39,847 bases of DNA from positions 1-39,847 of the forward strand of contig CALLUQ010000077.1 in NCBI GenBank assembly GCA_938010565.1, in the 5' to 3' direction. Each line of letters begins with the position of its first letter. Position 1 is the first letter of the stretch. This document shows, piece after piece, positions 3,224-31,157 of this stretch. The stretch is from an uncultured Flavobacteriales bacterium. Its GTDB lineage: Bacteria > Bacteroidota > Bacteroidia > Flavobacteriales_D > CALLUQ01. Made by a program: the position numbers and the translations under genes. The notes beneath the pieces were generated by a model that had not been told where the DNA came from, searched no databases, and was given only the letters and a program-made list of their open reading frames with translations.

Positions 3224-3470
3224 TTTACGATCTGGGGTTGCAATACCCTCACCTTTTTTCTGGCCTTTTCCCAATACCTCTAATTTGTCAGATCAAGTCG
3301 AAACCATTACAAATTGGATAAACTAAAAAGAGAAGCCCTGATGGCCGGATCATTATAATTGCTAATGCCGGCTGAAATTCGGAACTTTACTTATTTCGTT
3401 CACGTACATAATCAGGTTGCCTGAAAACACGTTTAAAAAGAAAGAAGATAACGCTGCTAAGAGAATTGCA

Positions 3471-6400
3471 ATGGCCGGTTCAAATTATCATATTCTGGTA
3501 GACAAGCTTGATCGCTTTATTAGGAAGTATTACAAGAATCAACTTATTAAAGGTGCTATTCTCGGCATTTCGTTAACCTTACTGGCTTGGTTTGTGATGG
3601 TTACCCTGGAGTATTATGGGCATTTTGAGCCCTTTATCCGAACGGTACTTTTTTATGCTTTCCTCAGTGCTGCCAGCGTAATTATAGCCCGGTGGATCGC
3701 CACCCCATTGGTTCGGTTGTATAAATTGGGCAAACGTATTTCATACGAACAAGCAGCCGATATTATTGGGTTTCACTTTAAAGATGTGGAGGATAGATTG
3801 CTCAACACCTTGCAATTGCACAAGCAAATTACCGATTTACCCGATCATCAACACCAATTGCTTAACGCCAGTATTGATCAGCGTATCGAAGCCCTGGGAC
3901 CTGTTTCTTTTACCAAAGCGATTGACTTTACGGAAAATAAAAAATACCTCAAATTCGCTGTTCCACCACTTCTTTTTCTGGTGGTGGTCCTTTTTGTAAA
4001 TGCCGATATTCTTTCCGACGGAAGCCAACGACTACTCCATTACGGAACGCATTTTGAACGTGAACTACCCTTTGAATTTATCATCAGCGACAACCTTGAT
4101 GTGGTAGAGCAGGATGATTTCGAATTGGTCGTAAGGTTGAAAAGCAATGATGCTGTGCCGGAGCATGTTTATGTAGAAAAGGATGGTTTTCGATTTAAGC
4201 TCGACAAGGAAAGCAATGTGCGCTTTAAGTACCTTTTTCGCAATGTTCAGGAAAACATTACCTTCCGGTTGTATGCAGATGGCCTTCATTCCGAAGAGTT
4301 TGAACTCAACACCCTTCCCAATCCGCTTATTCTCAACTTCGATATCGGGTTGAGTTACCCCGGTTATACAGGGCTGCAGGATGAAGTGTTGCGCAATGCA
4401 GGAGACATGATGATTCCGGCAGGTACAAAAGTGGACTGGAAATTTCGCACAAAGGATACCGATAACCTCCGCATCCGTTTTCATGATTCGTTATATGCAT
4501 TGAAGGCCCACGTTGCCGATCAATATCGGTTTACTCAAACTTTTTTAAACAGCACCAGTTATACGGTTACCACCGAAAATCAATATGTTCATGGCCGCGA
4601 TTCGATCCTTTACCGGATCAATGTTGTATCCGACCTTTATCCTTCTGTTGAGGTAGAAGAAAAACAGGACTCCACCTCTGGGAAGCACTTTTATTTCCGT
4701 GGCGATGCAAAAGACGATTACGGTTTCCGCAAACTTACCTTCAACTACAAAAAACGGACAAGCCAGGATGCTTTGTCTGCTCCCGAGTGGATAAGCATAC
4801 CGTTAAATATTGACAAAAACACCAACCGTACGGAATTTTTTCATTTCTGGGATCTATCGGAAATGAATATCCGCCCGGGCGATGAAATGGAATACTATTT
4901 CGAGGTATGGGATAACGATGGTGTAAATGGCAGCAAAGCTGCACGAAGCAGGGTGCGAACATTTAAAGCGCCTACTCTTCAGGAAATTTCTCAGGAAACA
5001 GAAGCGAACCATGCCGAAATAAAAAAAGGCATGGAGGAAAACATCCGCGAAGCAAAAGACCTCCGAAAACAACTGGACGATATACAAAAAGAGCTCTTTA
5101 GTAAAAAGGCCATGAACTGGCAAGACCGCCAAAAAATTCAGGATATTCTCGACCGGCAGAAACAACTGAAAAAGCGTGTGGAGCAGTTGAAAGAAAAAAA
5201 CCGGCAGAACAATCAGAAAAAGCAAGCATACAACCCGATGGATGAAGAGTTGTTGAAGAAACAGCAGGAGATAGAGCAGTTATTTGAAGACCTTATGACC
5301 GAAGAAATGAAACAACTTTTCGAGGAACTGGAAAAACTGCTTGAAAAGATGGATAAGGACCCGGTGCAGCAAAAGCTGGATGAGATGAAGATGGATACAA
5401 AAGATCTGGAGAAAGAGATGGACCGTACGCTTGAACTTTTCAAACAACTGGAATGGGAGCAAAAGCTGGATGAGACTATTGACAAGCTGGACCAACTGGC
5501 ACAACAGCAAGAAAAACTTTCCGAAGAAACCCAAAAAGCAAAAAAGGAAGAAAACCCGGAGTTGGAAAAGCAGCAGAAGGAATTAAGCGAGGCGTTTGAA
5601 CAAGTAAAACAGGACCTTCGGGAATTGGAAAAGAAAAACAAGGCCCTCAACCGCCCGAACGATATGCAGGATACCAAAGAACAGGAAGAGTCCATTTCCG
5701 GAGCAATGGAAAAGAGTTCGGAGCAACTGGATCAGAATAAAAACAACAAAGCTTCCGATTCTCAAAAAAACGCTTCGGATCAGATGAAGGAACTCTCGCA
5801 GCAAATGCAACAAATGCAACAATCGAATCAGATGGAGCAGATGCAGGAAGACCTGGGTGCTCTCCGGGTTCTTCTCGAAAACCTCATCCAACTTTCGTTT
5901 GATCAGGAAAGATTGATGACAGACTTACAAAAAACAGATTCAAAAGACCCCCGATATATCGATTTGGGCCGCGATCAACACAAACTGAAAGACGATGCTA
6001 AAATGATCGAGGATTCGCTTTTTGCATTAAGTAAACGTGTTCCTCAGTTGGAGTCTGCTGTGAACCGTGAGATCACATCCATCAACGACAATATGGTCAG
6101 AGCACTCAAACAAATAGCCGGACGCCGAACCTACAAGGCCACCAGTCGCCAGCAATATGTAATGACCAGCTTAAATAACCTCGCTTTACTCCTCGATGAA
6201 GCGTTACAACAAATGCAAAACGCAATGGCCATGAAAATGCCTGGTACCGGCCAATGCCAGAAACCGGGAAGCGGTAGTTCGCCAAAGGCCGGAAAACCCA
6301 ATATGAGTGAGTTGCAAAAACAATTAAGCAAGCAAATTGAAGAGCTAAAGAAGCAAATGGAGGGGCAAGGTAAAAAACCGGGCGAACAAAAAGGCAACGG

Positions 6401-6905
6401 GCAAAAAGAGGGGAACGGGCAAAAAGAAGGGAACATGCCAATTCCGGGTCAGAAACCGGGAACAAGCGGCCAGCCCGGAATGAGCGAAAAATTAGCTAAA
6501 TTAGCGGCCCGGCAAGAGGCCATGAGGAGGGAGATGGAACGTATCGGACAAGATCTAAACAAAGATGGTTCGGGTGCGGGAGAAGGCTTTAAAAAGATTG
6601 CCAAAGAAATGGAAGAAAATGAAAAGGACCTCATAAACCGTAACCTTACTCCCGAAACCTTGATGCGTCAGCAAGAAATTATGACCCGCCTACTGGAGAG
6701 TGAAAAGGCCATTAGGGAACGTGAATTCAAAGAAGAAAGAGAATCGAATGAAGCAAAAAATGAAGATTATGGTAACCCTAAAGAGTTTTTCGAGTATAAC
6801 AGAAAAAAAGAACAGGAAGTTGAACTGCTGAAGACCGTTCCTCCTGCTCTTAAAACTTATTATAAAAATAAAGTGAACCAGTATTTTAACAGTTTCGAAG
6901 ATTAG
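3471..6905 (+). CDS. DUF4175 family membrane/coiled-coil protein
   Basis: A 1144-residue protein of the Bacteroidota DUF4175 family; its biochemical role is not known. The N-terminal 200 residues hold three hydrophobic segments (GISLTLLAWFVMVTLEY, then a second around 65-85, and PPLLFLVVVLFV near 165). A presumably extracytoplasmic beta-rich region follows, then a very long Gln/Lys/Glu-rich coiled coil (about 510-900), a low-complexity stretch of GNGQKEG repeats (about 980-1010) and a conserved charged C-terminus. The gene sits 3 bp before the HATPase gene and heads a block ending in ybeY and mnmG, an order I recall as common in Bacteroidota. The ORF track starts at TTG 3417; the ATG at 3471 (MAGSNYHILVDKLD) fits relatives better. 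Confidence 0.85.
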   Translation: MAGSNYHILVDKLDRFIRKYYKNQLIKGAILGISLTLLAWFVMVTLEYYGHFEPFIRTVLFYAFLSAASVIIARWIATPLVRLYKLGKRISYEQAADIIGFHFKDVEDRLLNTLQLHKQITDLPDHQHQLLNASIDQRIEALGPVSFTKAIDFTENKKYLKFAVPPLLFLVVVLFVNADILSDGSQRLLHYGTHFERELPFEFIISDNLDVVEQDDFELVVRLKSNDAVPEHVYVEKDGFRFKLDKESNVRFKYLFRNVQENITFRLYADGLHSEEFELNTLPNPLILNFDIGLSYPGYTGLQDEVLRNAGDMMIPAGTKVDWKFRTKDTDNLRIRFHDSLYALKAHVADQYRFTQTFLNSTSYTVTTENQYVHGRDSILYRINVVSDLYPSVEVEEKQDSTSGKHFYFRGDAKDDYGFRKLTFNYKKRTSQDALSAPEWISIPLNIDKNTNRTEFFHFWDLSEMNIRPGDEMEYYFEVWDNDGVNGSKAARSRVRTFKAPTLQEISQETEANHAEIKKGMEENIREAKDLRKQLDDIQKELFSKKAMNWQDRQKIQDILDRQKQLKKRVEQLKEKNRQNNQKKQAYNPMDEELLKKQQEIEQLFEDLMTEEMKQLFEELEKLLEKMDKDPVQQKLDEMKMDTKDLEKEMDRTLELFKQLEWEQKLDETIDKLDQLAQQQEKLSEETQKAKKEENPELEKQQKELSEAFEQVKQDLRELEKKNKALNRPNDMQDTKEQEESISGAMEKSSEQLDQNKNNKASDSQKNASDQMKELSQQMQQMQQSNQMEQMQEDLGALRVLLENLIQLSFDQERLMTDLQKTDSKDPRYIDLGRDQHKLKDDAKMIEDSLFALSKRVPQLESAVNREITSINDNMVRALKQIAGRRTYKATSRQQYVMTSLNNLALLLDEALQQMQNAMAMKMPGTGQCQKPGSGSSPKAGKPNMSELQKQLSKQIEELKKQMEGQGKKPGEQKGNGQKEGNGQKEGNMPIPGQKPGTSGQPGMSEKLAKLAARQEAMRREMERIGQDLNKDGSGAGEGFKKIAKEMEENEKDLINRNLTPETLMRQQEIMTRLLESEKAIREREFKEERESNEAKNEDYGNPKEFFEYNRKKEQEVELLKTVPPALKTYYKNKVNQYFNSFED

Positions 6906-6908
6906 CCA

Positions 6909-7343
6909 ATGATGACCATGGAGGAACAAATTCGAACACCTACCGAACACAAAATCGGCTTTCCTTCCAGGATGGAAAATATGACGCTCGTAGAGAAGTT
7001 TATCGATGACGTATGTGAGGATTATAATATCAATGAAGATTATTACGGAAATATCCTGATCGCTCTGACCGAGGCTGTCAACAATGCGATACGACACGGC
7101 AATAAACTTGACCCGGAAAAAAATATCACGGTAACGTTTGATAGCAGAGGCAACGTTCTTCTCTTTGCCGTGGAGGATGAGGGCTCCGGTTTTAATTTTG
7201 ATACATTGCCCGATCCAACCGATCCTGCGAATATAGAGAAGCCACATGGGCGTGGTGTCTTTCTGATGCGTAACCTTGCAGATGAGGTTACTTTCGACAA
7301 CAATGGCCGACGGGTTGAATTGCATTTTCGGTTGGCCGTCTGA
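6909..7343 (+). CDS. Anti-sigma-factor-like ATP-binding protein (RsbW/SpoIIAB-like HATPase)
   Basis: A stand-alone GHKL ATPase domain of 144 residues. The N box is seen in ALTEAVNNAIRHGN (about residues 52-65), the G1 box in EDEGSGFN and the G2 box in GRGVFLMRNLAD. In the family, such proteins are serine kinases that bind sigma factors or anti-anti-sigma proteins; the partner is not encoded nearby. It follows the DUF4175 gene by 3 bp and precedes ybeY by 30 bp, so the three are probably co-transcribed. The start is ambiguous between two adjacent ATGs (6909, 6912) and another at 6918. Confidence 0.88.
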   Translation: MMTMEEQIRTPTEHKIGFPSRMENMTLVEKFIDDVCEDYNINEDYYGNILIALTEAVNNAIRHGNKLDPEKNITVTFDSRGNVLLFAVEDEGSGFNFDTLPDPTDPANIEKPHGRGVFLMRNLADEVTFDNNGRRVELHFRLAV

Positions 7344-7373: not shown

Positions 7374-7793
7374 ATGTCGGTAACTTTTCACAGCGAAGAG
7401 GTTAAATTTCGACTGCGCGATATTCGTGCAGTTCGCTATTGGTTGCAAGAAACGGTGGAGGTTGAAGGCTGCTCGGTTGGCGAACTTACATTTGTATTTT
7501 GCACGGATGATTATTTGCACAACATCAATAAGTCTTATCTCAACCACGACACCCTTACCGACATTATTACCTTCGATTATACGGAAAACAAAACCGTAGC
7601 AGGCGATGTTTTCATCAGCATTGAACGTACGCGTGAAAATGCAAAAACATTTGGCGTTTCTCACAAAGACGAGTTACATCGCATCATCATTCATGGCGTA
7701 CTTCATCTGTTGGGGTATAAAGACAAAAAACCTACCGAAAAGGCGCTCATGACCCGCAAAGAGGATTTTTACCTATCTTTGCGAAAATTCTGA
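7374..7793 (+). CDS. ybeY: Endoribonuclease YbeY (rRNA maturation)
   Basis: A single-domain zinc protein of 139 residues that in bacteria is needed for 16S rRNA 3'-end processing and 70S ribosome quality control. The signature reads HGVLHLLGYKD (about residues 105-115). The first two histidine ligands are present, but the third position, a histidine in E. coli (GYDH), is aspartate here, a change I recall as common in Bacteroidota. Upstream, LNHDTLTDIITFDY is the usual substrate-cleft motif. It sits 30 bp after the HATPase gene. Its tail contains a TATCTTTG sequence that may be a promoter for mnmG. Confidence 0.95.
   Translation: MSVTFHSEEVKFRLRDIRAVRYWLQETVEVEGCSVGELTFVFCTDDYLHNINKSYLNHDTLTDIITFDYTENKTVAGDVFISIERTRENAKTFGVSHKDELHRIIIHGVLHLLGYKDKKPTEKALMTRKEDFYLSLRKF
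7774..7781 (+). promoter_or_regulatory. Candidate -7 element for mnmG
   Basis: TATCTTTG, a perfect TAnnTTTG match, lies in the last codons of ybeY. A transcript from it would have a leader of about 64 nt containing the first parS site. No -33 TTTG at the right distance is seen, so it may be weak or fortuitous; mnmG could also be read from the upstream operon. Confidence 0.35.
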
Positions 7794-7825: not shown

Positions 7826-7841
7826 TGTTCCACGTGAAACT
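7826..7841. promoter_or_regulatory. parS site 1 (ParB-binding)
   Basis: TGTTCCACGTGAAACT matches the classical chromosomal parS sequence TGTTCCACGTGAAACA at 15 of 16 positions. It lies between ybeY and mnmG, ending 8 bp before the GTG start of mnmG, where it would occupy the ribosome-binding region. ParB loads and spreads from such sites to organise and segregate the origin region. Confidence 0.9.
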
Positions 7842-7849
7842 ATTGAGTT

Positions 7850-9721
7850 GTGCTTCCTGATTATGATGTAATAGTAGTAGGAGGAGGGCATGCAGGGTGT
7901 GAGGCCGCTGCTGCTGCTGCTAATCTCGGATCGAGGGTTTTGCTCGTTACCATGAACATGGAAACAATTGCACAAATGTCGTGCAACCCGGCCATGGGAG
8001 GCATCGCCAAAGGGCAGATCATTCGTGAAATTGATGCGCTCGGCGGTTACTCGGGAATGGTTACCGATCGCTCTGCCATTCAGTTCAAAATGCTGAATAA
8101 AAGCAAAGGGCCCGCCATGTGGAGCCCCAGAACACAAAACGACAGAATGCGGTTTCGCGAAGAATGGAGACGGATGTTGGAGCAAACGCCCAATGTTGAT
8201 TTCTGGCAGGATACCGTAACCTCAATTCAGACGACCGGACAACGAATTACAGGAGTAAAAACCAGTTTGGGAATTGCCATTTCCTGCAAAGCGATTGTTT
8301 TAACCAATGGTACATTTCTGAATGGTTTGATTCATTTGGGAGAGAAAAATTTTGGAGGAGGGAGAGCAGGAGAAAAAGCAGCCACCGGAATTACTGAACA
8401 ACTGATTGATCTGGGTTTTGAAAGCGGAAGAATGAAAACAGGTACGCCTCCGCGTGTAGACGGACGTTCGCTGGATTACAACAAAATGGAAGAACAGCCC
8501 GGAGATATAACCCCCGGACAATTCAGTTACCTGTATCCATCCCCGTTAAAAGCGCAACGTTCTTGTCATATTACCTATACCAACAGCAAGGTGCATGAGA
8601 TCCTGAGATCCGGCTTTGACAGGTCTCCCATGTTTGCCGGTCGGATCAAAAGCATCGGGCCACGTTATTGTCCTTCCATCGAAGATAAGGTCGATCGTTT
8701 TGCCGAACGGGAAAGGCACCAGATATTTGTGGAGCCCGAAGGGTGGAATACCGTTGAAATATATGTAAACGGATTTTCGACCTCCCTTCCCGAAGACGTT
8801 CAGGCAAAGGCCTTGAAAAGCATTCCGGGTTTTGAAAATGTGCGGATGTTCCGGCCCGGTTACGCCATCGAATACGATTATTTTCCTCCTACCCAATTGC
8901 AGCACACATTAGAGACCAAGTTGGTGCATAATTTATACTTTGCCGGTCAGATCAACGGCACTACGGGGTACGAAGAAGCCGCCTGTCAGGGGCTCATGGC
9001 CGGTATCAATGCCCATCTGAAGATCAACGAGTCGGAGCCTTTGGTTTTAAAGCGTTCCGAGGCCTATATCGGGGTGCTTATCGATGATCTGATCACAAAA
9101 GGGACAGAAGAGCCCTATCGGATGTTTACCTCGCGGGCAGAGTACCGAATTTTGCTCCGGCAGGATAATGCAGATATTCGGCTTACCCCACTTTCCTATA
9201 AAATAGGGTTGGCTTCCGAAGTGCGTATGAAACGCGTTAACCGCAAGATAAAAGGGACAATTAAAATAAAGGAGTTCTTCCGGGATACAAGCGTATCTCC
9301 GGAAGAGATCAATGCCCACTTAAAAGAAGCCGGTACGCCACCGTTAAAGCAAAAAGTAAAGCTTCACTCGGTGCTTTCCAGGCCGCAGGTTTCCATCGAA
9401 ATGCTTGAAAAAGCGATGCCTGCCGTGCGCGATGTTTTTGATCCGTTTGACGACATGGCCAAGGAGGTTCGGTCTCAATCAGAGATCCAGATGAAGTACG
9501 ATGGCTACATTGCAAAAGAGCAGGAGATGGCCGACAAGTTTGCAAAGATGGAAAACATTGTTTTGAGAAACGATCTTGATTATTATGCGTTGAAGTCTTT
9601 GTCTTCGGAAGGCAAGGAAAAGCTCTCCGCCATCAAACCCAGAACCCTTGGGCAAGCTTCGCGCATCAGCGGGGTTTCTTCTTCGGATATTTCAGTGTTG
9701 ATGGTTTATATCGGGAGGTAG
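7850..9721 (+). CDS. mnmG: tRNA uridine-5-carboxymethylaminomethyl modification enzyme MnmG (GidA)
   Basis: An FAD-dependent enzyme of 623 residues that with MnmE installs the cmnm5 modification at wobble U34 of several tRNAs. The N-terminal FAD motif is [10 protein letters not shown] (about 11-20). Family signatures follow: [39 protein letters not shown], and the C-terminal block with [27 protein letters not shown]. The start is GTG ([13 protein letters not shown]), which matches relatives starting MLPEYDV; no in-frame ATG fits. A parS site lies 8 bp upstream. mnmG is often close to the replication origin in bacteria. No mnmE or rsmG is in the window. Confidence 0.97.
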
Positions 9722-9749
9722 TGCTCCCTTTTTGGGGATGATTAAAAAG

Positions 9750-9790
9750 CAAAACCAAGCTTCGTTTGAAGTACCTGGCTTTTCTTTTCT
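9750..9790 (+). terminator. Possible terminator after mnmG
   Basis: An imperfect hairpin AAAACCAAGCTTC-gttt-GAAGTACCTGGCTTTT is followed by a T-rich run (TTTCTTTTCT) about 30 bp after the mnmG stop. The stem is interrupted by mismatches, so this is tentative. Confidence 0.3.
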
Positions 9791-9815
9791 CTGATTGTTT
9801 CTTCCGCGACTCAAA

Positions 9816-9831
9816 TGTTCCACGTGAAACG
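9816..9831. promoter_or_regulatory. parS site 2 (ParB-binding)
   Basis: TGTTCCACGTGAAACG matches the classical parS 16-mer at 15 of 16 positions. It lies in the gene-free stretch about 95 bp after mnmG and 1990 bp from site 1. Confidence 0.9.
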
Positions 9832-10562
9832 AAGCATGGCATATTCGTTTCACATTTCATCCGATGTATGAACTTATGTGTTCTTTGTCTTTCATCTTGG
9901 GGCAACATTACCGGAGCGAATGAAGGTCTTTAATTTTATTCTGCCAATGCCATTTCCCTTTTTCAGGCAGGGTTTGGCCTTTTTTCGGAGATAAGAAACG
10001 AGTGCTCATGTTCAGATCATTTTTGAAACAACTCCGGAAAATAAACAGGAAACCATTCGGATAAATTTAGTCTGCAAGAGATGTGAAGCAAAGACAACGT
10101 GTCGAAAGGAGTTTTTGAACCGATGTGTTTCCGGTAATTTTTCCCCTGTCAGTCCGTTCTGTGTTACACATTTCCTGTTACAGCAAACAACGCCTGGGGA
10201 AAGAAAGAGAGAAGCCCGGGTATGCATTAAAAGAGGCTATTCTTTTCTTTCAAGCACCTCCGCTCCGTGCATGATTTCAATCGGTCGGGCGAAAGGGTAA
10301 AGGTTTGCTCCGGCATGGCTCCCGGGGCTTACTTCAGAAGAATGCGATTGGGGTCTTCCTTTTCGCTTTATTTCGTTTTCTGTACAATCGGCGCTTGCAC
10401 TTGGAGTGTTCCCGTGTTTTTTAGCTGCAAGCAAAGAGTGTAAAGCAGCATTCATTTATTGGCTTCCAATGGTTGTGCCGGAGGGGCGTTTTGTGTTCGG
10501 CAAACCAATGTTCGGTGCTTTGGAGAATCCACTTGGGTGAGGCGTGTGGCCATACGTTCGCG

Positions 10563-10578
10563 TGTTCCACGTGAAACA
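10563..10578. promoter_or_regulatory. parS site 3 (ParB-binding), perfect match
   Basis: TGTTCCACGTGAAACA is identical to the 16-bp parS sequence known from Bacillus subtilis. It lies 747 bp from site 2 in the same gene-free region. Three near-identical copies within 2.8 kb argue strongly against chance. Confidence 0.95.
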
Positions 10579-11003
10579 TCCCCCAAAGACAATCTTTCGA
10601 AACATATAAACCATGCATTTATTCTATTTGTATTCCCAGGCAACAATGGAGTTTGGGTTTGCACTTGCCCCATTGGAGTGCTGCTGCTTTATCCACCCTC
10701 ACCATAGCCTGACCCCGGGCGATGAGGCGAAAAGGGCGCCCTGTCGCCAACCGACCTGCTTTCATTCAACCTTGGGTCTGTGTAAATGGAGAAAACATGC
10801 TTTTAAGGCGATTTAAGGCGTGTTTTTAGGAGGGGTGGGGTTGACGGTTCAAAAAATTGTGAAACGAGCTGAAAAAGGCCTTGAAATAAAGGGCTTTTGT
10901 CTGTTTCTATGTGATCTGCTTTCAAGGGGTTAAGTGTATTTTGGAGGGCTTTTTACCCGAAAAGGGGGTATGCCTGAATTTACCGCTCCCTGTGGGTGTC
11001 GAA

Positions 11004-12017
11004 TTAACAAAATAAAAAATAGTCCCGGGATTGCACCCAACCCATTCCTTTAAGTTGGTGTGTAATTTTTGCTTTGTCATCTGCATTTGCAACGGCTACA
11101 ATGATCTGAGGTTTCTCCAAGCATTTAAGGATTTGCGTTTCTTCCATCTTCACCCCGTGAATAACATGTCCGATTTTCGACGGGGTTTCGCACACCCAGT
11201 GAAAAGGCTGCTTAAAATCCTGAAGCAAACGGGCAATCACTTTCCCTTTTTTACCTGCCCCCCACAAAACCAATGGCCGGCCATTTTCTCTATCGAGGCG
11301 AAGAAACCACCAGGTTTTAAGGTTTAAAAAACGGTTGTCTGCATACACCTCGCTGTTTCGGGATGTGCGCTCACCATAATCCCGCCAGGAGTGGATCACT
11401 TCTTTTACCGGGGCAATGTTTAATGCGGCTTCGTAAAACCGAAAAGCCATGTCGTAGTCTTCCGGGTACCGGTTGGGCTCGAAAGCACCTGCTTTTTCAA
11501 AATCATTGCGATGCACCATCCAGCAAATCGAAGGGATGACACATTCTTTATACCGGTCGAGGTAATTGGCCCCTGTTTCTGTGAGCCGGTTCAACCAGTT
11601 GGCATATTTGCGGTAGCCTTCGCCTACAAGGCCATTTTCCGTAAAATAGGCGACCTGGCCTACGGCCACATGACCTAGCCCCGACTGCTGTAGAGCACCA
11701 AGCAACCGTTCCAGCTTTTTCGGGTGAGCCAGGTCGTCGCCATCCATCCGGGTGAGGTAGGGACCGCAACTGTATGCATAGGCTTTTCGCAAGCCATCGA
11801 TGATGCCTTTTCCGTGCGGCTTTAATGCGATGATCCTTGGGTCTTTTTGTGCGAATTGATGGAGAATACATCCGGTATCGTCGGTGCTGTGGTCGTCTAC
11901 CACACAAAGTTCCCATCGGGTTTCCGTTTGTTGGATCAGGCTCCGGAGACAGGCCGCGATCCAATGCTCGGTGTTGCGGACAGTCATGAGGACAGAAACC
12001 ACGGGAGGGTGTTGCAT
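11004..12017 (-). CDS. Family 2 glycosyltransferase with C-terminal Rossmann-like extension
   Basis: A 337-residue GT-A fold transferase, probably acting in the cytoplasm on cell-surface polysaccharide or lipid glycosylation; no transmembrane segment is seen. The N-terminus VSVLMTVRNTEHWI and CVVDDHSTDDT (about 35-45) are the nucleotide-sugar binding elements, and the DxD-like motif is RMDGDDLAH (about 92-100). After about residue 240 a separate segment starts with VLWGAGKKGKV, which resembles the nucleotide-binding glycine loop of a small Rossmann-like domain; such tails occur on some glycosyltransferases. It is isolated from other polysaccharide genes. The gene is convergent with mnmG across the parS region. 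Confidence 0.88.
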   Translation of the reverse strand: MQHPPVVSVLMTVRNTEHWIAACLRSLIQQTETRWELCVVDDHSTDDTGCILHQFAQKDPRIIALKPHGKGIIDGLRKAYAYSCGPYLTRMDGDDLAHPKKLERLLGALQQSGLGHVAVGQVAYFTENGLVGEGYRKYANWLNRLTETGANYLDRYKECVIPSICWMVHRNDFEKAGAFEPNRYPEDYDMAFRFYEAALNIAPVKEVIHSWRDYGERTSRNSEVYADNRFLNLKTWWFLRLDRENGRPLVLWGAGKKGKVIARLLQDFKQPFHWVCETPSKIGHVIHGVKMEETQILKCLEKPQIIVAVANADDKAKITHQLKGMGWVQSRDYFLFC

Positions 12018-12285
12018 GCTTTACGGGTTTGAAACGGTCGAAGGGGTGAAAAATAGTTATACTCCGGCAATTCCCGAAAAGGTTTTCGGGATGGTTTCTT
12101 CGCTATTGCATGGTTCAAAAAGAAGTTTTCTTGTGTGAAAGTGGACAAAAACATTTTGTTTTCCGCTCCGAAGAATCACCTCACGCAACATGCTTACCGA
12201 GCCTATTAAAACAATCATTTTCAGTGTGTTGGGGTTTTGTCGCCTTCTTTTGGTCTGCATTCCATGAGCCAATGGCAGGCATTGC

Positions 12286-13767
12286 TTAATTGACATCCGG
12301 TTTTTGTGATTTTTCCATTTCGGACGATAAAAGGTCGATCACTTCGGGCAATTGTTCAATTCCCAGTTTTTTGGCTTTGATGATGTTGTTTTTATCCAGA
12401 ATGAAAATTTGGGGGGTATTGTACACATCGTATACTTCGCGGAAATTATTGAGAAACGGGTCAACCGGGTTGTCGGTAACATTCAGCCAGGGAAGCTCAT
12501 TTTCTTTGATGAAATCACGCCATTCTTTGGTGTCTTGAGTGGTTCCGATGCCCCACATCTTAATCCCCTTTGTGCGATACTTTTGGTAAAACTCCTTCAT
12601 TGCAGGCATTGATTTTTTACAATGGCCACAACCCGGATCCCAGAAAAAAAGTACCATCAGATCGTGCTTTGATTGGCTGAGCTCATGCCATCGGCCAAGG
12701 GTATCTTTCAAACGCATATTGGGAGAAACGGCCCCACAAACGCACGGAGCCAACTCGGCCCCGCGGCTTCGGATGTTGTTCAGTTGGTTTTCCGATGCCC
12801 ACCATGCTTTTTCTTTGGTATAATAATTCAGTGTCAGATGCACAAAAACCTTATCGATGCAAAGCAATTTGGAGTTGTTGTATCGGGTATACAGATAAAC
12901 AAAAAGGTACTTATAGTATTCTTGGTTTCCGCCTGCCTTTTCAACCAGGTCAAATACACGATCGATATCCCGGATGATAGAATCTGGCATCTGTGGAACC
13001 AGATTATCAAAGTAAAAAGCCAGTTTTCTGTGGAAGATCGGGGTGCGTATTAACCGGTCGTCTCTGAAGTTGATGTGATCGAAATAGTGTTTTTTGAACC
13101 ACAGGTATTCAAGGTTGATGCTTTCGTCCTTTTTATTATTCTCCTTGACTTCCTGAGGAACGATCGGGTCGGATTGTGCTTCCAGCATTAAGGCCAACAT
13201 GGTTCCCGGGTTTTCATTTTGGAGTTTTTTCCGGTAAGCAACGGTTTCATCATTGAGGGCTTTCAGCAGCTTTGCCAATTCTTTCGCCCTTTCACTGTCT
13301 TTTTCTACTTGTGTTTGTTCGGTGATCAGTTTCTGGCGCTCCTGGCCTTTGTCCATCATGTAGTTTTGGAACTTCAAGAACAAGTTGTTTTCCGCAGACC
13401 CTTTAAAAGAAAGGTTTTTGAGGTAATTAAGGGTATCGCTTTTGATGCTGAGTTTTTGCTCGTGAATGAGGAATTCAAGCATGTAAGTTTTTTGGGAAGA
13501 AATCAGGGTATAAATACCGCTATCCAGGCTGTCGGATCCGCTGAAAACAAATTTTTCTTCTTTTACTTTGGCCGTATCTACCAAGTATTGCTGGTCGCCA
13601 TAGCGGAAAGCCAGGTATACAATGCTGTCGGTATAATTTTTAATTTCACAGGAGATATTATACCCTTGAGCCCGAACAGAAGATCCGTTCATTCCGGCCG
13701 TTATAACCATTATAAAAAGACCGGCCATTACCATTTTAAACGCTTGCTGAATCAACATGCCTTGCAT
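12286..13767 (-). CDS. Exported TlpA-like thiol-disulfide protein (DUF4369/thioredoxin)
   Basis: A thioredoxin-fold protein probably anchored or free in the periplasm, 493 residues from the chosen start. The N-terminus (MQGMLIQQAFKMVMAGLFIM...) is a signal peptide with likely cleavage after VRA. Next comes a DUF4369-like domain (about 36-130; YNISCEIKNYTDSIVYLAF), a helical middle of about 200 residues, and a C-terminal redoxin domain with the redox motif CGHC in DPGCGHCKKSMPA. Family members reduce or isomerise disulfides in envelope proteins. The ORF track starts 37 residues earlier at 13878; M at 13767 or 13758 gives a standard signal peptide. No electron-donor partner such as DsbD is nearby. 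Confidence 0.85.
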   Translation of the reverse strand: MQGMLIQQAFKMVMAGLFIMVITAGMNGSSVRAQGYNISCEIKNYTDSIVYLAFRYGDQQYLVDTAKVKEEKFVFSGSDSLDSGIYTLISSQKTYMLEFLIHEQKLSIKSDTLNYLKNLSFKGSAENNLFLKFQNYMMDKGQERQKLITEQTQVEKDSERAKELAKLLKALNDETVAYRKKLQNENPGTMLALMLEAQSDPIVPQEVKENNKKDESINLEYLWFKKHYFDHINFRDDRLIRTPIFHRKLAFYFDNLVPQMPDSIIRDIDRVFDLVEKAGGNQEYYKYLFVYLYTRYNNSKLLCIDKVFVHLTLNYYTKEKAWWASENQLNNIRSRGAELAPCVCGAVSPNMRLKDTLGRWHELSQSKHDLMVLFFWDPGCGHCKKSMPAMKEFYQKYRTKGIKMWGIGTTQDTKEWRDFIKENELPWLNVTDNPVDPFLNNFREVYDVYNTPQIFILDKNNIIKAKKLGIEQLPEVIDLLSSEMEKSQKPDVN

Positions 13768-14106
13768 CACTTTTTGTTTGGACAAACTTTCACAAATACG
13801 AAAGTTAAGAAACATTACGGGAGTTTTTTTCTCGGAAGCATTAAAGCTTTTCGATCGATAGACGCTCCGAAAGAACACTTGGTTGCCGAACAGTAGGAAA
13901 AAGGAAAACGATATCCTGAAATTTACAAGAAACCTGCCCCCCTTTTATGTTACCGATGGATATTACAGCCCCGTTGCAGGCATTGTTATGCTTAAGGATA
14001 AGCTCCGAATGAAATCGGCACTTTTACGGCAAACCAATGTACTCCGGAGAGCAATTTCGGATGAACCGGTCGAAAACGCCATTGAAACCTGTTGCAACAA
14101 TCGGGT

Positions 14107-14847
14107 TTAAATGGTCATGGCCTGTGCGGTATTCTGTACTTTGTGACGAAACCGCAGCGATGCGCGTACAAACTGCGTAATCAATGGGTGAGGCAAAGCA
14201 CCTGCAGAAGTGATTTGCGGATGGAACAAGGTTCCTACAAAAAAGGTGTTATGCTTGTATTCGAATATACGGATATCTCCTGCTTCATCCATTCCTCCCG
14301 GGTGCAACTCTTTCTGAACCAGATGATCCAGCAATTCGTCGGCAATGTTCAACCTCCAGGCAGATGCTTCACGGGCTATTTCCTGCGGATAGCACTGATG
14401 TGCAATGGAACCGTTCAGAAGATAGATTTTTTCCAGTTCGATCTTGGGAGTTCCTGAGGCACTTTTTCGGGTAATGCCCCTCTGATCTTTTGCCGTAAAG
14501 AAATGAGTTGCTCCCTGAACGCCCAATACATTTTTTGTGAATTCGAGAATAGCAAACTGACATCCGGAGCTGGTGCCCAAAAACGGAATGTTTTTTTCTC
14601 GTGCATAACGAACGGCTTCTATGATGCCCCGCGCATTGGCATAAGGTCCGGCGGTAAGAAAAATACCGTCGAACCGGCTCAGTTCTGCTCTGGGATCATT
14701 GGCTATGCTTTGGGAGTCAACCCACCAGTAATTGATGTCGGTTTCGAGTATGTTTGCGCTGTCTTCAATGGCACGATTGGTGGACAGATGTGATGTCTGT
14801 TCCCGATTAAAATCACCAACAATAGCAATGTCGAGATAATGATCCAT
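14107..14847 (-). CDS. CTP synthase C-terminal-like class I glutamine amidotransferase, triad degenerate
   Basis: A 246-residue stand-alone protein resembling the glutaminase half of CTP synthase. The start IAIVGDFNREQTSH matches the family whose members are named CTP synthase C-terminal region-related (seleno)proteins; some carry selenocysteine at the nucleophile. Here the nucleophile elbow reads LGTSSGCQ where CTP synthase has LGICLGMQ, so serine replaces the catalytic cysteine. The later LFHPQITS replaces the usual FHPE, so the glutamate is glutamine. The expected Cys-His-Glu triad is therefore Ser-His-Gln, and glutaminase activity is doubtful. No TGA codon is involved. Function unknown. 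ATG at 14847 is chosen over the TTG at 14874. Confidence 0.8.
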   Translation of the reverse strand: MDHYLDIAIVGDFNREQTSHLSTNRAIEDSANILETDINYWWVDSQSIANDPRAELSRFDGIFLTAGPYANARGIIEAVRYAREKNIPFLGTSSGCQFAILEFTKNVLGVQGATHFFTAKDQRGITRKSASGTPKIELEKIYLLNGSIAHQCYPQEIAREASAWRLNIADELLDHLVQKELHPGGMDEAGDIRIFEYKHNTFFVGTLFHPQITSAGALPHPLITQFVRASLRFRHKVQNTAQAMTI

Positions 14848-15056
14848 GGTTTTAAATTGATTTGCCCGGGGCAAAATATGATCTCTTTATAACGTCCATA
14901 CGAACAAAATGTTACCCCAATCTGATCAAGGTGCCGCCCCTGTGATTTAGGTGTTCAGGAGTTGTTTCGGATTACAAGGGTCACGTTGGCCGGATGGGTC
15001 TAAAAACAATCCCAAAAGAGTTCCGACACATCACCACCCGGACCACAACCTTTCCT

Positions 15057-18854: not shown

Positions 18855-21800
18855 TTATTGCAACGATGCCAGTGTTGGGGTATTCTTTTCATACATCAAC
18901 TCCTCGTAATGCACCGGTAAAACAATTTCAACCCGTGTTCCGGCAGCTTTTCCGTCGCTGTCTTTTAATTCACAGGGGCCTTTTACATGCAAGGTTTCGC
19001 GGGTCATTTGTTTCATCAGCCTGAGGCGGCTTGTGGTAATGGCCATGCCTTGCGAAATGTGGTCTTTTTTTCCCTTCTTCTTTTTCAGGCTGGTTTCAAT
19101 TCCGATCCCATTGTCTTCGATAATAAAAACGAGGCTGTTTTTTTTTCGCATCACCTCAATGGTAATGGTACCGCCATTTTTGCGGGGCAACAAGCCATGC
19201 CAGATGCTGTTTTCTACAAAAGGCTGCAACAACATGGCCGGTATTTTCAAAGCTTCGGCATCAATTTGCGGATCCACCTTGATCCGGTATTCGAACTTAT
19301 CATGGAAACGCATGTGTTCCAGTGTAAGGTACAATTCCAGGCGTTCCATTTCGTCCGAGAGGGAAACCACGTTGGTTTGCGAACTGTCCAGGTTTTTACG
19401 AACCAGCCGGGCAAAACTCGACAGGTATTTATTAGCGGCAAGCCGGTCTTGCCTGTTGATGTAAAACTGAATGGAATTCAGAGCATTGAAAATAAAGTGG
19501 CGGTTCATGCTGGCATTGAGCGTTTGTTGTTCCAGTGCCAGCATTTTGGATTGGTTGATAAGGTACTCGCGTTCTTTTTCTTTACGCAGCACGTTTCGCC
19601 TCCACCGGTAAATGCGATACGTGATGATGCCCAGGCAAACCACAGCTAACGCCAGAAACCACCAACGCGCCCAGAAAGGGGGAATGATGGTGAAGGAAAA
19701 AGCAGCCGGATCGGAGGTCCAGGCTCCATCTTTGTTTTGGGCTCTTACCAAAAAAGTATACGCCCCATAGTCCAGGTTGGCATAAGTGGCAAAGGTAGCC
19801 TGGGTAAGGGGCCTCCAAGTGTCTTCAAAACCTTTGAGGTAAAACCGGTAGTGTATTTTTTTGGGGTTGGTGTGGCCGATGCCCCGATAATAAAAAGTAA
19901 GGTAGTTGTGGTTGTGTTTCAGGGCGAGGTTTTGAGGCAGTCCGGTCAGACCAATGGAATCGGTATGACATTCCCAGTCGGTTTTCTCAAGGAAAAGTCG
20001 GATCTGGCTGATGTTGATGTAGGGTTTCACGTTGCCGGAGGTGATCTTTTCTTTTTGCGGGTCAAACTCCATGGTGCCCTCGCTGGTGCCCATCCATACA
20101 TGTCCGCGTTTATCGCAGTAGGCGGCATTGAGGTTGGTTTCGGGACTGTTGATCCCATCGTGGTCGGTAAAGAGTTTAAAATCCGTTTTCCTTGTTCTGT
20201 AAAATTCTTCCAGATTGAGCCGGATCAAACCGTTGTTGGTGCCGATCCACAGTCGGTTTTTATGGTCGGTGACTAAAAAATTGATCTTGTCGGAGCCAAA
20301 AAGGCGGCTCGTTTCGGAAAGCTTAAAAGTTTGGAACGTTTTTCTGTCGTAAAAACCCAGGCCGTTATCGGTGCCGATCCACAAGTTGCTTTTATGGTCT
20401 TCCAGAATGTTCCATATAAGGTTGTCGCTTAAGCCATCTTCCTGGGTGAAAAGGCGATATTCCTCGTTTTCTGATCGGGTAAGCCCGTTAGATCCGGCAA
20501 ACCAAAAAACCCCTTCCGAATCTTTCAGAATGCTTCGGATCCTTACCCCCGGAAAACCGTTAGCCTTTGTATAAGTAGTCAATTGTTTACCGTCCCACCG
20601 GACAACGCCTTCCCGGTTGCCCAACCATAAATCCCCATTTTCGTTTTCAAACAGCGCAGTAATTTTCTTATCACTTAAACTATCTAAGAGGCTGTTAATG
20701 GATTTAACGGGCTTCAGGAGACCATCTTTGTAAGCGTTAATGCCTCCAGTGGTTCCAAACCAGATGGCCTGGTCTTTTGCTGCCATACTACACCAGACTT
20801 TATTGTTAGACAACCCTTCGCCGGTGCTGTAGTTTTCGTAGCGGCCTTTTCTGTCGTATTTGCAGATGCCATTTCCGTAGGTCGAAAACCAGATGTTGTT
20901 TTCGTGGTCCTCCACCACCGACATCACAAAATTGCTGCAAATGCCATCGGCCGTGGTGTAGTTCACAAATGCTTCGCCGGTAAACTTACAGATGCCTCCG
21001 CCATCGGAAGACAACCACAGGTTGCCTTCGTTGTCTTGGGTCATGGATTTGATCCTCTCAAAAGGAAGGCCTTCTTTTTCGCCAAAATGGGTGAATGTTG
21101 CCCCGTCGTACTTTACGATGCCGGATAACGTGGAAAGCCAGATGTTGCCCTCGCTGTCGCTGAAAATGGATTCGATGGAGTTGTCTTTTAAGCCATTTTG
21201 GGTGGTGAAACGATCAAACTTTTTCAGGTTAGCATCAAAGCGGTACAAGCCACTATTTGCCGTGCTGACCCAGATATGGCCCTTTGGGTCTTCGTGCAAA
21301 TCGGAAATGTTGTAACCGTTGAGGGTGTCTATAATGCTTTTTGTAAAGGTGTTTGCAAAGGTACCGTTTTGATAAGCGGAAAGCCCTCCTACAATGCAAA
21401 ACCAAACGGTTCCGTTCCGGGTGGTCCGGATGCTTCGAACGGATTTGTCAGACAAACCCGAGTCGCCCGTAAAATGGGTAAAGCTTTGACCATCAAATCG
21501 AAATGCGCCTCCGCGATCGGTGCCCAGCCAAAGGTGGCCTTCCCGGTCTTCTGCCATTGTTATAATAAAATTGTCCCGAAGAGGGGTGTCTACCATGTAG
21601 TTTTCGAATGTACTGCCTTTAAACTTGCTGATGCCGCCTCTTGATCCGATCCAAACCTGACCTTTGCTATCGAGAAATACCACATCGTTCCGGTTGTTGA
21701 TCAAACCATCATCTACCGAATAGTTGGTAAACGAATTGCCATCGAAACGGCTCACTCCTCCAAGGGTTGCAATCCACAAATACCCTTGCCGATCCTGACA

Positions 21801-21920
21801 CATGGAACGCGCCTGAGTGGCTGCAAGGCCATCGCGAACGCTGTAATTGATGAATTTGTATTGTTGGGCCTGCACTGAAAAATTCAGCAAACACAACAAG
21901 GCGAAATAGATCCTGATCAT
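18855..21920 (-). CDS. Propeller-type sensor histidine kinase (LytS family)
   Basis: A 1021-residue membrane sensor. A signal peptide ends near SVQAQ. Residues about 25-630 are two-component-regulator propeller repeats (recurrent D..G.lWigT..GG...FDG units) that form a periplasmic beta-propeller sensor. A Y_Y_Y-type domain follows (YRFYLKGFEDTWRPL, about 690-750), then one transmembrane helix (WWFLALAVVCLGIITYRIY). The cytoplasmic part is a LytS-type kinase with the phospho-accepting histidine in MNRHFIFNALNS, and a C-terminal HATPase (PFVENSIWHGLL; EDNGIGIE). There is no fused receiver or DNA-binding domain. The LytTR regulator gene ends 37 bp upstream, so the two are probably an operon. The ligand is unknown; in Bacteroidota such propellers often sense glycans. 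Confidence 0.92.
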   Translation of the reverse strand: MIRIYFALLCLLNFSVQAQQYKFINYSVRDGLAATQARSMCQDRQGYLWIATLGGVSRFDGNSFTNYSVDDGLINNRNDVVFLDSKGQVWIGSRGGISKFKGSTFENYMVDTPLRDNFIITMAEDREGHLWLGTDRGGAFRFDGQSFTHFTGDSGLSDKSVRSIRTTRNGTVWFCIVGGLSAYQNGTFANTFTKSIIDTLNGYNISDLHEDPKGHIWVSTANSGLYRFDANLKKFDRFTTQNGLKDNSIESIFSDSEGNIWLSTLSGIVKYDGATFTHFGEKEGLPFERIKSMTQDNEGNLWLSSDGGGICKFTGEAFVNYTTADGICSNFVMSVVEDHENNIWFSTYGNGICKYDRKGRYENYSTGEGLSNNKVWCSMAAKDQAIWFGTTGGINAYKDGLLKPVKSINSLLDSLSDKKITALFENENGDLWLGNREGVVRWDGKQLTTYTKANGFPGVRIRSILKDSEGVFWFAGSNGLTRSENEEYRLFTQEDGLSDNLIWNILEDHKSNLWIGTDNGLGFYDRKTFQTFKLSETSRLFGSDKINFLVTDHKNRLWIGTNNGLIRLNLEEFYRTRKTDFKLFTDHDGINSPETNLNAAYCDKRGHVWMGTSEGTMEFDPQKEKITSGNVKPYINISQIRLFLEKTDWECHTDSIGLTGLPQNLALKHNHNYLTFYYRGIGHTNPKKIHYRFYLKGFEDTWRPLTQATFATYANLDYGAYTFLVRAQNKDGAWTSDPAAFSFTIIPPFWARWWFLALAVVCLGIITYRIYRWRRNVLRKEKEREYLINQSKMLALEQQTLNASMNRHFIFNALNSIQFYINRQDRLAANKYLSSFARLVRKNLDSSQTNVVSLSDEMERLELYLTLEHMRFHDKFEYRIKVDPQIDAEALKIPAMLLQPFVENSIWHGLLPRKNGGTITIEVMRKKNSLVFIIEDNGIGIETSLKKKKGKKDHISQGMAITTSRLRLMKQMTRETLHVKGPCELKDSDGKAAGTRVEIVLPVHYEELMYEKNTPTLASLQ

Positions 21921-21957
21921 GGTTTTTTATCGGTATTTGTGCTCCGGAAGATCAGGA

Positions 21958-22728
21958 TCACATGGCCGCCGCGCGTTTGATGAACTCATTCAGTTTACGG
22001 CGGGCAATAGGGATCATGGAGGCATTGCTCATTACGGCCATGTTTCCTTCAGAACGGCTAAACTCTTTGAGGTGGTACAGCATATTGATGATGTGTGATT
22101 TATGGGTGCGGAAAAAGATCCGTGGGTTGAGGCTTTCTTCGTAAACTTTGATGTTTTTACAGCTGATGTATTTGCGACCATCGGCAAGGTGGATGGTCGT
22201 ATAACAATCGCTGGCTACCAGGTTTACAATGTCCATGCTCTTTACTACGGCAAAACCATCGCGGGTTGGAATGGTCGTTTTATCAATCTCTTTAAAGTGA
22301 ACGGCATTCTCAAGCAATTCTTGCAAATGTCCGATACGCAAACTGCCGGTCATTTCTTCTTGGTTCCGGAAACGCTTCACTTTCTCCACAGCTGCCTGTA
22401 GTTCTTCAATGTTAATAGGCTTTTCAAGGTAGTCAACGGCACTTTCGCGAAATGCTTTGAATGCAAACTCATCGTGAGCAGTGGTAAAAACCACGGAAAA
22501 ACGACGCTTCGGAAGGGAACGAAGCAATGAAAATCCGTCCTCCTGTGGCATTTTTATGTCGAGAAAAACCAAATCGGGGTCATGTTGGGCAATGCATTCG
22601 CGGGCTTGTTCCGCAGAGTCGGCCAAGGTTGCTACTTCAACATCAGGGCAATATTCTTCCAGAAACATTTGAAGGTTGCAACGAGCATTTAATTCATCAT
22701 CAACGATCAGCGCTTTGAGATTTTTCAT
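21958..22728 (-). CDS. LytTR-family response regulator, partner of the propeller kinase
   Basis: A 256-residue cytoplasmic transcription factor. The receiver domain (about 1-125) has the acidic pair VDDE, the phospho-acceptor aspartate in VFLDIKMP and the lysine in YLEKPI. The C-terminal LytTR DNA-binding domain (about 155-250) includes RTHKSHIIN and PIARRKLNEF. It lies directly upstream of the sensor kinase (37 bp), so it is the likely phosphate acceptor. A close paralog is 270 bp upstream. LytTR proteins bind paired direct repeats, which were not identified here. Confidence 0.93.
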   Translation of the reverse strand: MKNLKALIVDDELNARCNLQMFLEEYCPDVEVATLADSAEQARECIAQHDPDLVFLDIKMPQEDGFSLLRSLPKRRFSVVFTTAHDEFAFKAFRESAVDYLEKPINIEELQAAVEKVKRFRNQEEMTGSLRIGHLQELLENAVHFKEIDKTTIPTRDGFAVVKSMDIVNLVASDCYTTIHLADGRKYISCKNIKVYEESLNPRIFFRTHKSHIINMLYHLKEFSRSEGNMAVMSNASMIPIARRKLNEFIKRAAAM

Positions 22729-28553: not shown

Positions 28554-31157
28554 TTACTTTTTGTACTTCCGCCCGCCGTTTCGTTTTATAAACTTTCTCA
28601 ACTTCGCACCTTTCGCAAGCATAAGCGGCGTACACCCATCATTGTTTACTGCATTAACATTGCACCCATGATCCAGCAACATTTCGGCCAGTGAAATATG
28701 GTTTCTGTGCCGCATTGCAAAATGCAAAGCAGTATAACCATTGGTTGCCTTTGCGTTCGGATCAAGACCTGCACCCAGCAATACCTTAGCCGTTTCGACC
28801 GAGCCCGTTTTGCTGGCCATATGCAGCAACGTTTTTCCGTCGGCAGCAACGTACGAAACAGGAGCACCGGCTTTGATCAAACGGTTTAAAACGGAACCGT
28901 TCTTATACTTTATAGCTGTAATTACATGTGCTTCTTTGGTTTGATCGGCCCCGTACTTTACCAGCAGATCCAACATTGGTATATTGCCGTTTACAATGGC
29001 CGGGTGCATGCCATTCTCAGCCACAGCACCTTTTTGCAAAAGCAGCTCGGCATTTCCGATATCGTTGGCAAACGATGCGGCCTGTAGGTATTTGGCATTG
29101 GCATAGTCTACCCCATGTTCGATCAGGGTTCTGGCGGTCGTTCTTTTTTTGTTTTTTAAGGCAGGAACCAACCCGTAATTTGCATCTGCACCGGAATCCA
29201 ACAACAAGCCCACCACCTTGTCGTTTCCTTTTCCGGCCGCAGCCGCAATAAATGCAGGTTGAGTGCCATCGGCGCCACGCATCATTAAGATTTCTACAAC
29301 AGGCGTTTGATGGGCATAAATGGCCGGTTCCATTCCGGGGTTGGCATCCGCCCCCCCGTCAAGCAACAACCGAACAATTTCGGTATTGCCCCTTCCGGCT
29401 GCAGTTGCCATGTACTCCGGCTGGTTTACCTGTGCACCATAGGCAACCAGCTGCCGAACCACAACCGTGTGGTTGTTTTGAATCGCCGGGCCCATGCCTG
29501 CGTTGGGGTTGGCTTCGTACGACAATAGCAGATCCACCATATCGGGCCAGCCATATCCGCTCATTTCGGCCAACACCAGGTTAGGGTCGGCACCGTTGGC
29601 TAGTGCAATGGCAGCCAGGTTGTTTTTTTTCTCTCTTGCAGCAATTGCCAACGCCTCGTTGGCATTGCCACCATAATGCGCCAACGTAACATCCAACAAC
29701 TGCTCGTGGTTTTTTTGAACCGCATACGGTATCACTTTTAACGGCTGGGCTCCTTGTTGCAAGCACATTTGAACAATATGAGCACGGTTTTTTGAGATGG
29801 CCATATCGATCGCTTTTTCGGCGTCTGTTCCATTGGCGAGTGCCATTTGTACGATCTCATCATTGTTTTTGAGCATGGCAATGTCGAAAGGTCGGTTGTT
29901 TTTACACCGGGCACCCTTTTCGATCAATGTTTTGAAAATGATAACGTTGTTTTGGTTGGCAGCCTCTTCCAACCCATTGCCCGGATCGGCATACCGGTTC
30001 AACAATGCGGTAACCATAGCGATATTATTGGCTTTGATCGCCGCGTTTAATGGGTTTCCGTCGTTGGCATCTGCTCCCCGATCAAGCAATATCTGAGCAC
30101 TGGCAATGTCGTTTTGTTCCACTGCAACCACCAATACCGTTTTTCCGGCATTGTTTTTCAAAGAAAGGTCGGCGCCTTTATCAAGCAAAAGCTGTGTTAC
30201 GTATGTTTTTCGGGTTCTTACGCCATCAAAAAGGGGAGTTTCTCCTTTGTTGTTTTTAGCATTTATATCGATGCCTTCATCGAAAAGCTTAACCATTTCG
30301 GAAGTATTTCCGGCCCGGGCTGCTTTATGCAGGTCAGTATCGCCATTGGGGTCGGCTGTTTTGGGATGATCCGTAGCGGAACGGTTGATCTGTTGTTCTT
30401 TTCCGGCCGCAGCAGAATACCAGAGCGTACCGTCGTTTTTCAGCACATAAAGCCTCGAATTTACTTTTCCGGAAGTCGCCATTTTGCCCGTAAATCCAGT
30501 TTTTTGTAAGGAAGTACCATGGATGCGATAAAGCATCGGTTCACCAGTAGAGGTGCGGTTCGAAGAAACCAGATATACCTGCCCGTCGCCACCCCGTTTA
30601 AGGCCGGACCCTCTGGCATTTGAAACGACTTTTGAAGCTCCTTTGATGTACGACCAGACAGTACCGTCGGGCCGGATATAGTAAATGGTTCCGTTGTTCG
30701 CAACAGCAACCGCTTTTGCCTGATGGTTCAAACCTGAAACGCGCAACCATTTACCGGAAGAGAAAAAATAGATCTTCCGGTCGGTTTTGTTGACCATATA
30801 ATACCGGCCATCGGTACCGCTGGTCGAAACATCGATGGCTTTACCGTTGATGCCTGACCATTGTGTACCGTTCCACTGGAAAATGCTTCCTTGATGGTCG
30901 CGAACCAGCAAACGGGTATTGCCGTTGGGGTTGTATTCCACATCCACCAGGCCAATTTTTGGGCTCAGACGCGACCAAACGCCGGTTTGGTATTGAAAAA
31001 TCCCTTCTCCGGTTGGGGTTTTTCCGGCAACCACCAAAGCAGACGTAGCAGGGTTGAAACAAAGATCGTGAATTACGTAAGGTGCTTGCACCGTTTGAGC
31101 CTGTGTACTCAAAGCACAACAAAAGAATAAAGAAAAAAGCCAGGTAGATGTTTTCAT
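28554..31157 (-). CDS. Exported tectonin-propeller and ankyrin-repeat protein
   Basis: An 867-residue exported protein. A signal peptide ends near ALSTQAQT. Residues about 25-265 contain tectonin/TECPR-like beta-propeller units of about 36-40 residues (for example GRYYMVNKTDRKIYFFSSGKW, then GTIYYIRPDGTVWSY and RLYVLKNDGTLWY). From about residue 270 to the end there are some 17 ankyrin repeats, the first and last canonical (GDTDLHKAARAGN; NGYTALHFAMRHRNH) and the middle ones shortened or diverged. There is no T9SS sorting domain or transmembrane helix, so it is probably periplasmic or outer-membrane associated. Function unknown; both parts bind ligands or proteins in other families. Two TATTTTTG elements lie upstream. 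Confidence 0.87.
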   Translation of the reverse strand: MKTSTWLFSLFFCCALSTQAQTVQAPYVIHDLCFNPATSALVVAGKTPTGEGIFQYQTGVWSRLSPKIGLVDVEYNPNGNTRLLVRDHQGSIFQWNGTQWSGINGKAIDVSTSGTDGRYYMVNKTDRKIYFFSSGKWLRVSGLNHQAKAVAVANNGTIYYIRPDGTVWSYIKGASKVVSNARGSGLKRGGDGQVYLVSSNRTSTGEPMLYRIHGTSLQKTGFTGKMATSGKVNSRLYVLKNDGTLWYSAAAGKEQQINRSATDHPKTADPNGDTDLHKAARAGNTSEMVKLFDEGIDINAKNNKGETPLFDGVRTRKTYVTQLLLDKGADLSLKNNAGKTVLVVAVEQNDIASAQILLDRGADANDGNPLNAAIKANNIAMVTALLNRYADPGNGLEEAANQNNVIIFKTLIEKGARCKNNRPFDIAMLKNNDEIVQMALANGTDAEKAIDMAISKNRAHIVQMCLQQGAQPLKVIPYAVQKNHEQLLDVTLAHYGGNANEALAIAAREKKNNLAAIALANGADPNLVLAEMSGYGWPDMVDLLLSYEANPNAGMGPAIQNNHTVVVRQLVAYGAQVNQPEYMATAAGRGNTEIVRLLLDGGADANPGMEPAIYAHQTPVVEILMMRGADGTQPAFIAAAAGKGNDKVVGLLLDSGADANYGLVPALKNKKRTTARTLIEHGVDYANAKYLQAASFANDIGNAELLLQKGAVAENGMHPAIVNGNIPMLDLLVKYGADQTKEAHVITAIKYKNGSVLNRLIKAGAPVSYVAADGKTLLHMASKTGSVETAKVLLGAGLDPNAKATNGYTALHFAMRHRNHISLAEMLLDHGCNVNAVNNDGCTPLMLAKGAKLRKFIKRNGGRKYKK

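Follow-up and report, generated by a model that had tools for sequence, protein, structure and literature searches.

Why should a short palindrome recur three times around a single gene, mnmG, in a Bacteroidota bacterium? The 15-mer TGTTCCACGTGAAAC is found in exact copies, all on the plus strand, at positions 7826, 9816 and 10563 of the window, by which we mean the whole stretch of 39,847 nucleotides analysed here; it is the entire contig C77 of a draft genome (3.02 Mb in 211 contigs, 91.6% complete). An earlier note on this DNA had proposed that the locus is the ParB-loading centre of the chromosome. At the level of sequence this proposal is supported by the uniqueness of the sites, by a single parA/parB pair, by the specificity residues of ParB and by conservation throughout the phylum, and we consider it very probable that the three copies are parS sites forming the ParB-loading chromosomal centromere of this bacterium, with the replication origin nearby.

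The three sites and their surroundings

The first site (7826..7841, plus strand, TGTTCCACGTGAAACT) departs from the 16-bp parS palindrome TGTTNCACGTGAAACA in its last base and lies 8 bp 5′ of the mnmG start codon. The second (9816..9831, plus strand, TGTTCCACGTGAAACG) has one mismatch, again in the last base, and lies about 0.1 kb 3′ of mnmG, and the third (10563..10578, plus strand, TGTTCCACGTGAAACA), about 0.84 kb 3′ of the gene, is a perfect 16-mer. The reading of these positions as three parS matches, of which the third is the full 16-bp form, is therefore borne out, and the palindrome is present in the few clustered copies that characterize chromosomal ParABS systems, with three sites in 2.75 kb. 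The earlier note had also proposed a whole-genome search at one mismatch, in which many scattered copies would have spoken against a centromere; when all contigs of the draft genome (3.02 Mb) were scanned at up to one mismatch, only the three window sites matched. Coincidental matches have a negligible probability as an explanation, because shuffling the window predicts 0.11 matches at up to two mismatches against the six site-strand matches observed, none of 100 dinucleotide shuffles attained six, and the address of the sites is conserved across relatives.

The gene that the sites flank, mnmG (gidA; 7850..9721, plus strand), is assigned by TIGR00136 (825 bits, cut-off 525) and PF01134. Upstream of it lie ybeY (7374..7793, plus strand; PF02130), a conserved upstream neighbor of the parS-mnmG arrangement, an anti-sigma-type HATPase gene (6909..7343, plus strand; PF13581) that is found in the upstream block of some relatives, and a DUF4175 gene (3417..6905, plus strand; PF13779) belonging to the conserved upstream block and present in 53 of the 84 loci scanned. 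The AT skew reaches +0.39 at 5001-7000, in the 3′ part of the DUF4175 gene, and is far lower in the rest of the window. Downstream of mnmG, a gap of 1.28 kb (9722..11003) without a convincing open reading frame contains the second and third sites, and a search of this gap gave no Rfam match. The flanking genes converge on the cluster, as had been remarked earlier, with those on the left on the plus strand from tyrS on and those on the right on the minus strand (11004-14874). Farther along the window, a sensor with Reg_prop propeller and histidine kinase domains adjoins a LytTR response regulator (18855-22728), the two forming a two-component pair, and an ankyrin-repeat-rich protein of 867 aa is encoded at 28554-31157.

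ParB, ParA and the search for an SMC

The genome contains one ParB_N match, and it adjoins a parA gene. The only parA-parB operon (C3:7935-9699) is on a contig other than the window and consists of parA (C3:7935-8786) and parB (C3:8776-9699; TIGR00180, parB_part, 178 bits against a cut-off of 58), which disposes of the possibility, raised in the earlier note, that no parB gene exists. The single copy of dnaA lies on a third contig, neither that of the window nor that of parAB. The GERRxR motif, part of the CTP pocket of ParB, is present in this protein as GERRFR. Its DNA-reading helix aligns without gaps to the Caulobacter ParB numbering, in which it retains Q162, G170, K171, R173, N178, G201 and R204 and further carries K172, Y179 and K184; R173 and G201 are the residues of parS-type ParB (PMC7383237). 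We also considered a Noc protein acting at NBS sites, since this ParB scores 246 bits with the Noc model, short of the cut-off of 315, and has K184, but in place of the Noc residues Q173 and R201 it has R173 and G201, and the DNA sites are parS rather than NBS; this identity was rejected.

The SMC_prok_B profile run over the genome (91.6% complete) reached at best 30 bits against a cut-off of 567, and no SMC protein above the family cut-off was found there, so that the SMC-loading role known from B. subtilis may be missing here, a point that counts against the sites being a centromere. Loading of SMC-ScpAB at parS is widespread without being universal. A different condensin may exist in this genome, and a study of two gut Bacteroidetes likewise found no known condensin in them (PMC10197239).

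Constraint on the motif and its address across the phylum

Among 152 sites near mnmG, gathered at up to three mismatches, motif positions 2-4, 6-11 and 13-15 are near-invariant, including a nearly invariant CACGTG core, and the variable positions are 1, 16 and the Y/R pair 5/12; the site flanks contain no conserved letters beyond A+T richness. The numbers of sites with zero, one, two and three mismatches are 90, 51, 9 and 2, followed by 25 at four mismatches, so that true sites can be separated from background. This degeneracy is that of parS, unlike an RNA stem, in which the loop is the freest part: CACGTG, mostly loop in such a hairpin, is nearly invariant here and the outer positions vary, and the hairpin reading was rejected on these grounds.

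At up to one mismatch, 182 of 198 genomes from across the phylum contain the parS pattern, as do 37 of 40 nearer relatives. For the position of the sites we used two sets of genomes. The first comprises 64 Bacteroidia genomes with listed matches, our own included, and was selected by having matches; here 125 of 155 sites are near mnmG, a site lies within 2.5 kb of the gene in 57 of the 64 genomes, and 28 have sites on both sides. The second comprises the best-scoring 80 named mnmG loci (Flavobacteriaceae, Cyclobacteriaceae, Pedobacter, Mucilaginibacter, Chitinophaga and others), picked regardless of parS, though not a random draw. Sixty of these 80 loci carry parS no more than 500 bp from mnmG (upstream 58, downstream 38, both 36). 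The 228 kb that lie up to 500 bp from the gene hold 141 sites and the 1,345 kb beyond hold 18, a 46-fold difference in density. The remaining 20 of the 80 have no parS at mnmG, which counts against a centromere at this address; the loci of Saprospiraceae, Lewinellaceae, Dyadobacter and Larkinella in the set are all without a site. Two Dyadobacter loci (L284 and L293) contain both ybeY and mnmG, yet no parS at up to one mismatch, and their sites may have diverged or relocated. The address reaches beyond the class: in the other classes of the phylum perfect sites were found in 27 of 32 genomes, and in 23 of these 27 a perfect site lies within 1 kb of mnmG, with MnmG identity as low as 45%. ParB was located in all 32 of these genomes, never right beside a perfect parS site, the nearest distance seen being 54 kb (G109).

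So close an association with one gene invites the thought that the palindromes are operators, mRNA hairpins or terminators that regulate mnmG and have been retained for its sake rather than for segregation. Nearest-site distances in the 64 Bacteroidia genomes do cluster: in many genomes just 3-30 bp separate the upstream site from the start codon of mnmG, and a spacing of 1-15 bp between the stop codon and the downstream site is frequent. In addition, parS and the ybeY-mnmG adjacency tend to be present or lost together. Against this, many genomes have several sites hundreds of base pairs from mnmG, 20 of the best-scoring 80 mnmG genes are without a site, and the sequence is that of classical parS in a genome whose ParB has the matching residues, in addition to the invariance of CACGTG described above. 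In two genomes of one family (G166 and G072, both family-f10), parS and mnmG share a contig but are 25-27 kb apart, a possible case of a site shifted within the origin region and a further point against an mnmG operator. We regard regulation of mnmG as the sole reason for these sites as very unlikely, though it is possible that the upstream site also acts as an mnmG operator as a side effect of its position.

The ybeY gene is present in 55 of the 60 loci with parS at mnmG against 4 of the 20 without, so an mnmG gene outside its usual neighborhood is usually without a site; this hints, but does not prove, that the address goes with the chromosomal region rather than with mnmG itself. Since the sites sit within a conserved gene block, they might also be former parS sites, now relics that travel with the ybeY-mnmG pair while segregation uses other sites. 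This is less probable still, because a non-coding motif of 14-16 bp is conserved near-perfectly across classes between flanks that are not, and because this genome has no other sites at up to one mismatch.

The replication origin and the proposed centromere

Chromosomal parS sites lie near the replication origin, and this location was examined in relatives with complete chromosomes, our own genome being a draft. In single-contig relatives parS-mnmG, parB and dnaA are far apart, for example at 3.64, 1.97 and 1.98 Mb, respectively, in G214 (4.10 Mb) and at 1.38, 0.21 and 0.00 Mb in G118 (4.09 Mb). GC skew was determined in twenty 20-kb samples round each of four chromosomes (G214, G199, G118 and G057, in which order all values follow), with distances in twentieths of the chromosome and parS at zero. 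The boundary of the skew that marks the origin fell at 0, 1, 19 and 1, and the terminus near 7-11, that is, opposite, so that the near-origin location of the sites is given by GC skew in four complete relatives. By comparison dnaA was at 11.9, 2.2, 13.3 and 15.7 and parB at 11.9, 14.4, 14.3 and 14.9. Shuffled samples matched the observed skew contrast in 0, 1, 16 and 10 of 500 trials, and the chance that randomly placed origins would fall within ±1 step in all four is about 0.0005 (0.15 to the fourth power). In a continuous stretch of 400 kb from G214, which belongs to the same order, the skew reaches its minimum at 3,647,125, where one gene of a diverging pair begins; this point is 6.3 kb away from the mnmG start, on its upstream side. 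In G199 the minimum coincides with the contig junction and is separated from parS by 17 kb, provided the contig is closed. The suggestion of the earlier note that the origin itself may lie some distance off needs softening accordingly, to within about 5% of the chromosome in these four relatives and about 6 kb in G214. Its proposal to use dnaA and parAB as origin markers is misleading, as neither marks the skew origin in these bacteria.

Closer to mnmG the picture is less sharp. Averaged over ±10 kb in the named loci of 49 relatives, the skew has no clear switch beside mnmG, which counts against the centromere; the distance from origin to mnmG probably differs among relatives, given that no common switch occurs within this range. 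Also counting against it, the window contains no perfect TTATNCACA box, as an oriC would, and no cluster of more than three one-mismatch TTATNCACA boxes in 600 bp. DnaA-box clusters, weak and scattered in G214 and G199, were set aside as an origin marker, as were coding-strand bias and AT skew, which mostly performed no better than shuffles. GC skew in the window is mostly positive from about 4 kb onward, which, as a matter of speculation, would fit an origin at or beyond its left end, and a diverging gene pair lies at 1384-1479.

Taking these lines together, we infer ParB binding, its spreading, segregation and a position for the origin as follows. ParB, whose only gene adjoins parA on a different contig, would be loaded at the three parS sites of 16 bp that surround mnmG, would form a CTP-gated clamp there and would spread onto the adjoining DNA. 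ParA would then move the ParB-parS complex, so that segregation begins with the newly copied origin region, as in the established ParABS mechanism (PMC7333895). The origin would lie near these sites, probably no more than tens of kilobases away and perhaps on the upstream side of mnmG, with dnaA and parAB elsewhere. The classical systems of Bacillus subtilis and Caulobacter crescentus (PMC7333895) have in common with this one the 16-bp site in few clustered copies near the origin, the single ParA/ParB pair, the parS-type residues of ParB and the GERRxR motif. They differ in that here parAB and dnaA are not beside the sites, that parS has a fixed place at one end of mnmG or at both, and that no SMC is found above the cut-off. 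In the gut Bacteroidetes Bacteroides caecimuris and Muribaculum intestinale, studied by Hi-C, a parS cluster and GC skew likewise mark the origin, and dnaA is not always located there; mnmG is not mentioned in the available part of that work, and the comparison made here extends over Bacteroidota far beyond two gut strains (PMC10197239). The element is thus essentially of a known kind, with an unusually fixed address. Our literature search found no paper linking parS to mnmG in Bacteroidota; the parS survey of Livny (2007) may list such positions, and the novelty of a phylum-wide parS-mnmG address is uncertain.

The ancestral origin gene cluster includes dnaA, gidA, gidB, parA, parB and others (Ogasawara & Yoshikawa, 1992, cited in PMC2099444). 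That gidA, which is mnmG, is among these genes is shared with the locus described here, whereas parAB and dnaA are now elsewhere and mnmG with parS is at the skew origin; the simplest history is therefore that mnmG and parS remained at the origin while dnaA and parAB relocated. It can be proposed, tentatively and as a generalization that may well fail, that the origin-proximal centromere of Bacteroidota has a fixed ancestral address, with parS adjoining mnmG on one side or on both and frequently preceded by ybeY, that dnaA and parAB have moved far off, and that in such lineages as this one it operates with no canonical SMC condensin. This raises the question of how ParB-parS organizes a chromosome with distant parAB and no SMC seen.

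Bacteroidota are major bacteria of the gut, the soil and the sea. If the proposal is true, mnmG-parS would mark the origin within the sequence better than dnaA does in this phylum. As dnaA is off the skew origin in the relatives checked, origins would be misplaced when genomes are rotated to dnaA or growth rates are estimated from sequencing coverage, and a short mnmG-linked motif that follows the skew origin would offer a landmark that can be checked.
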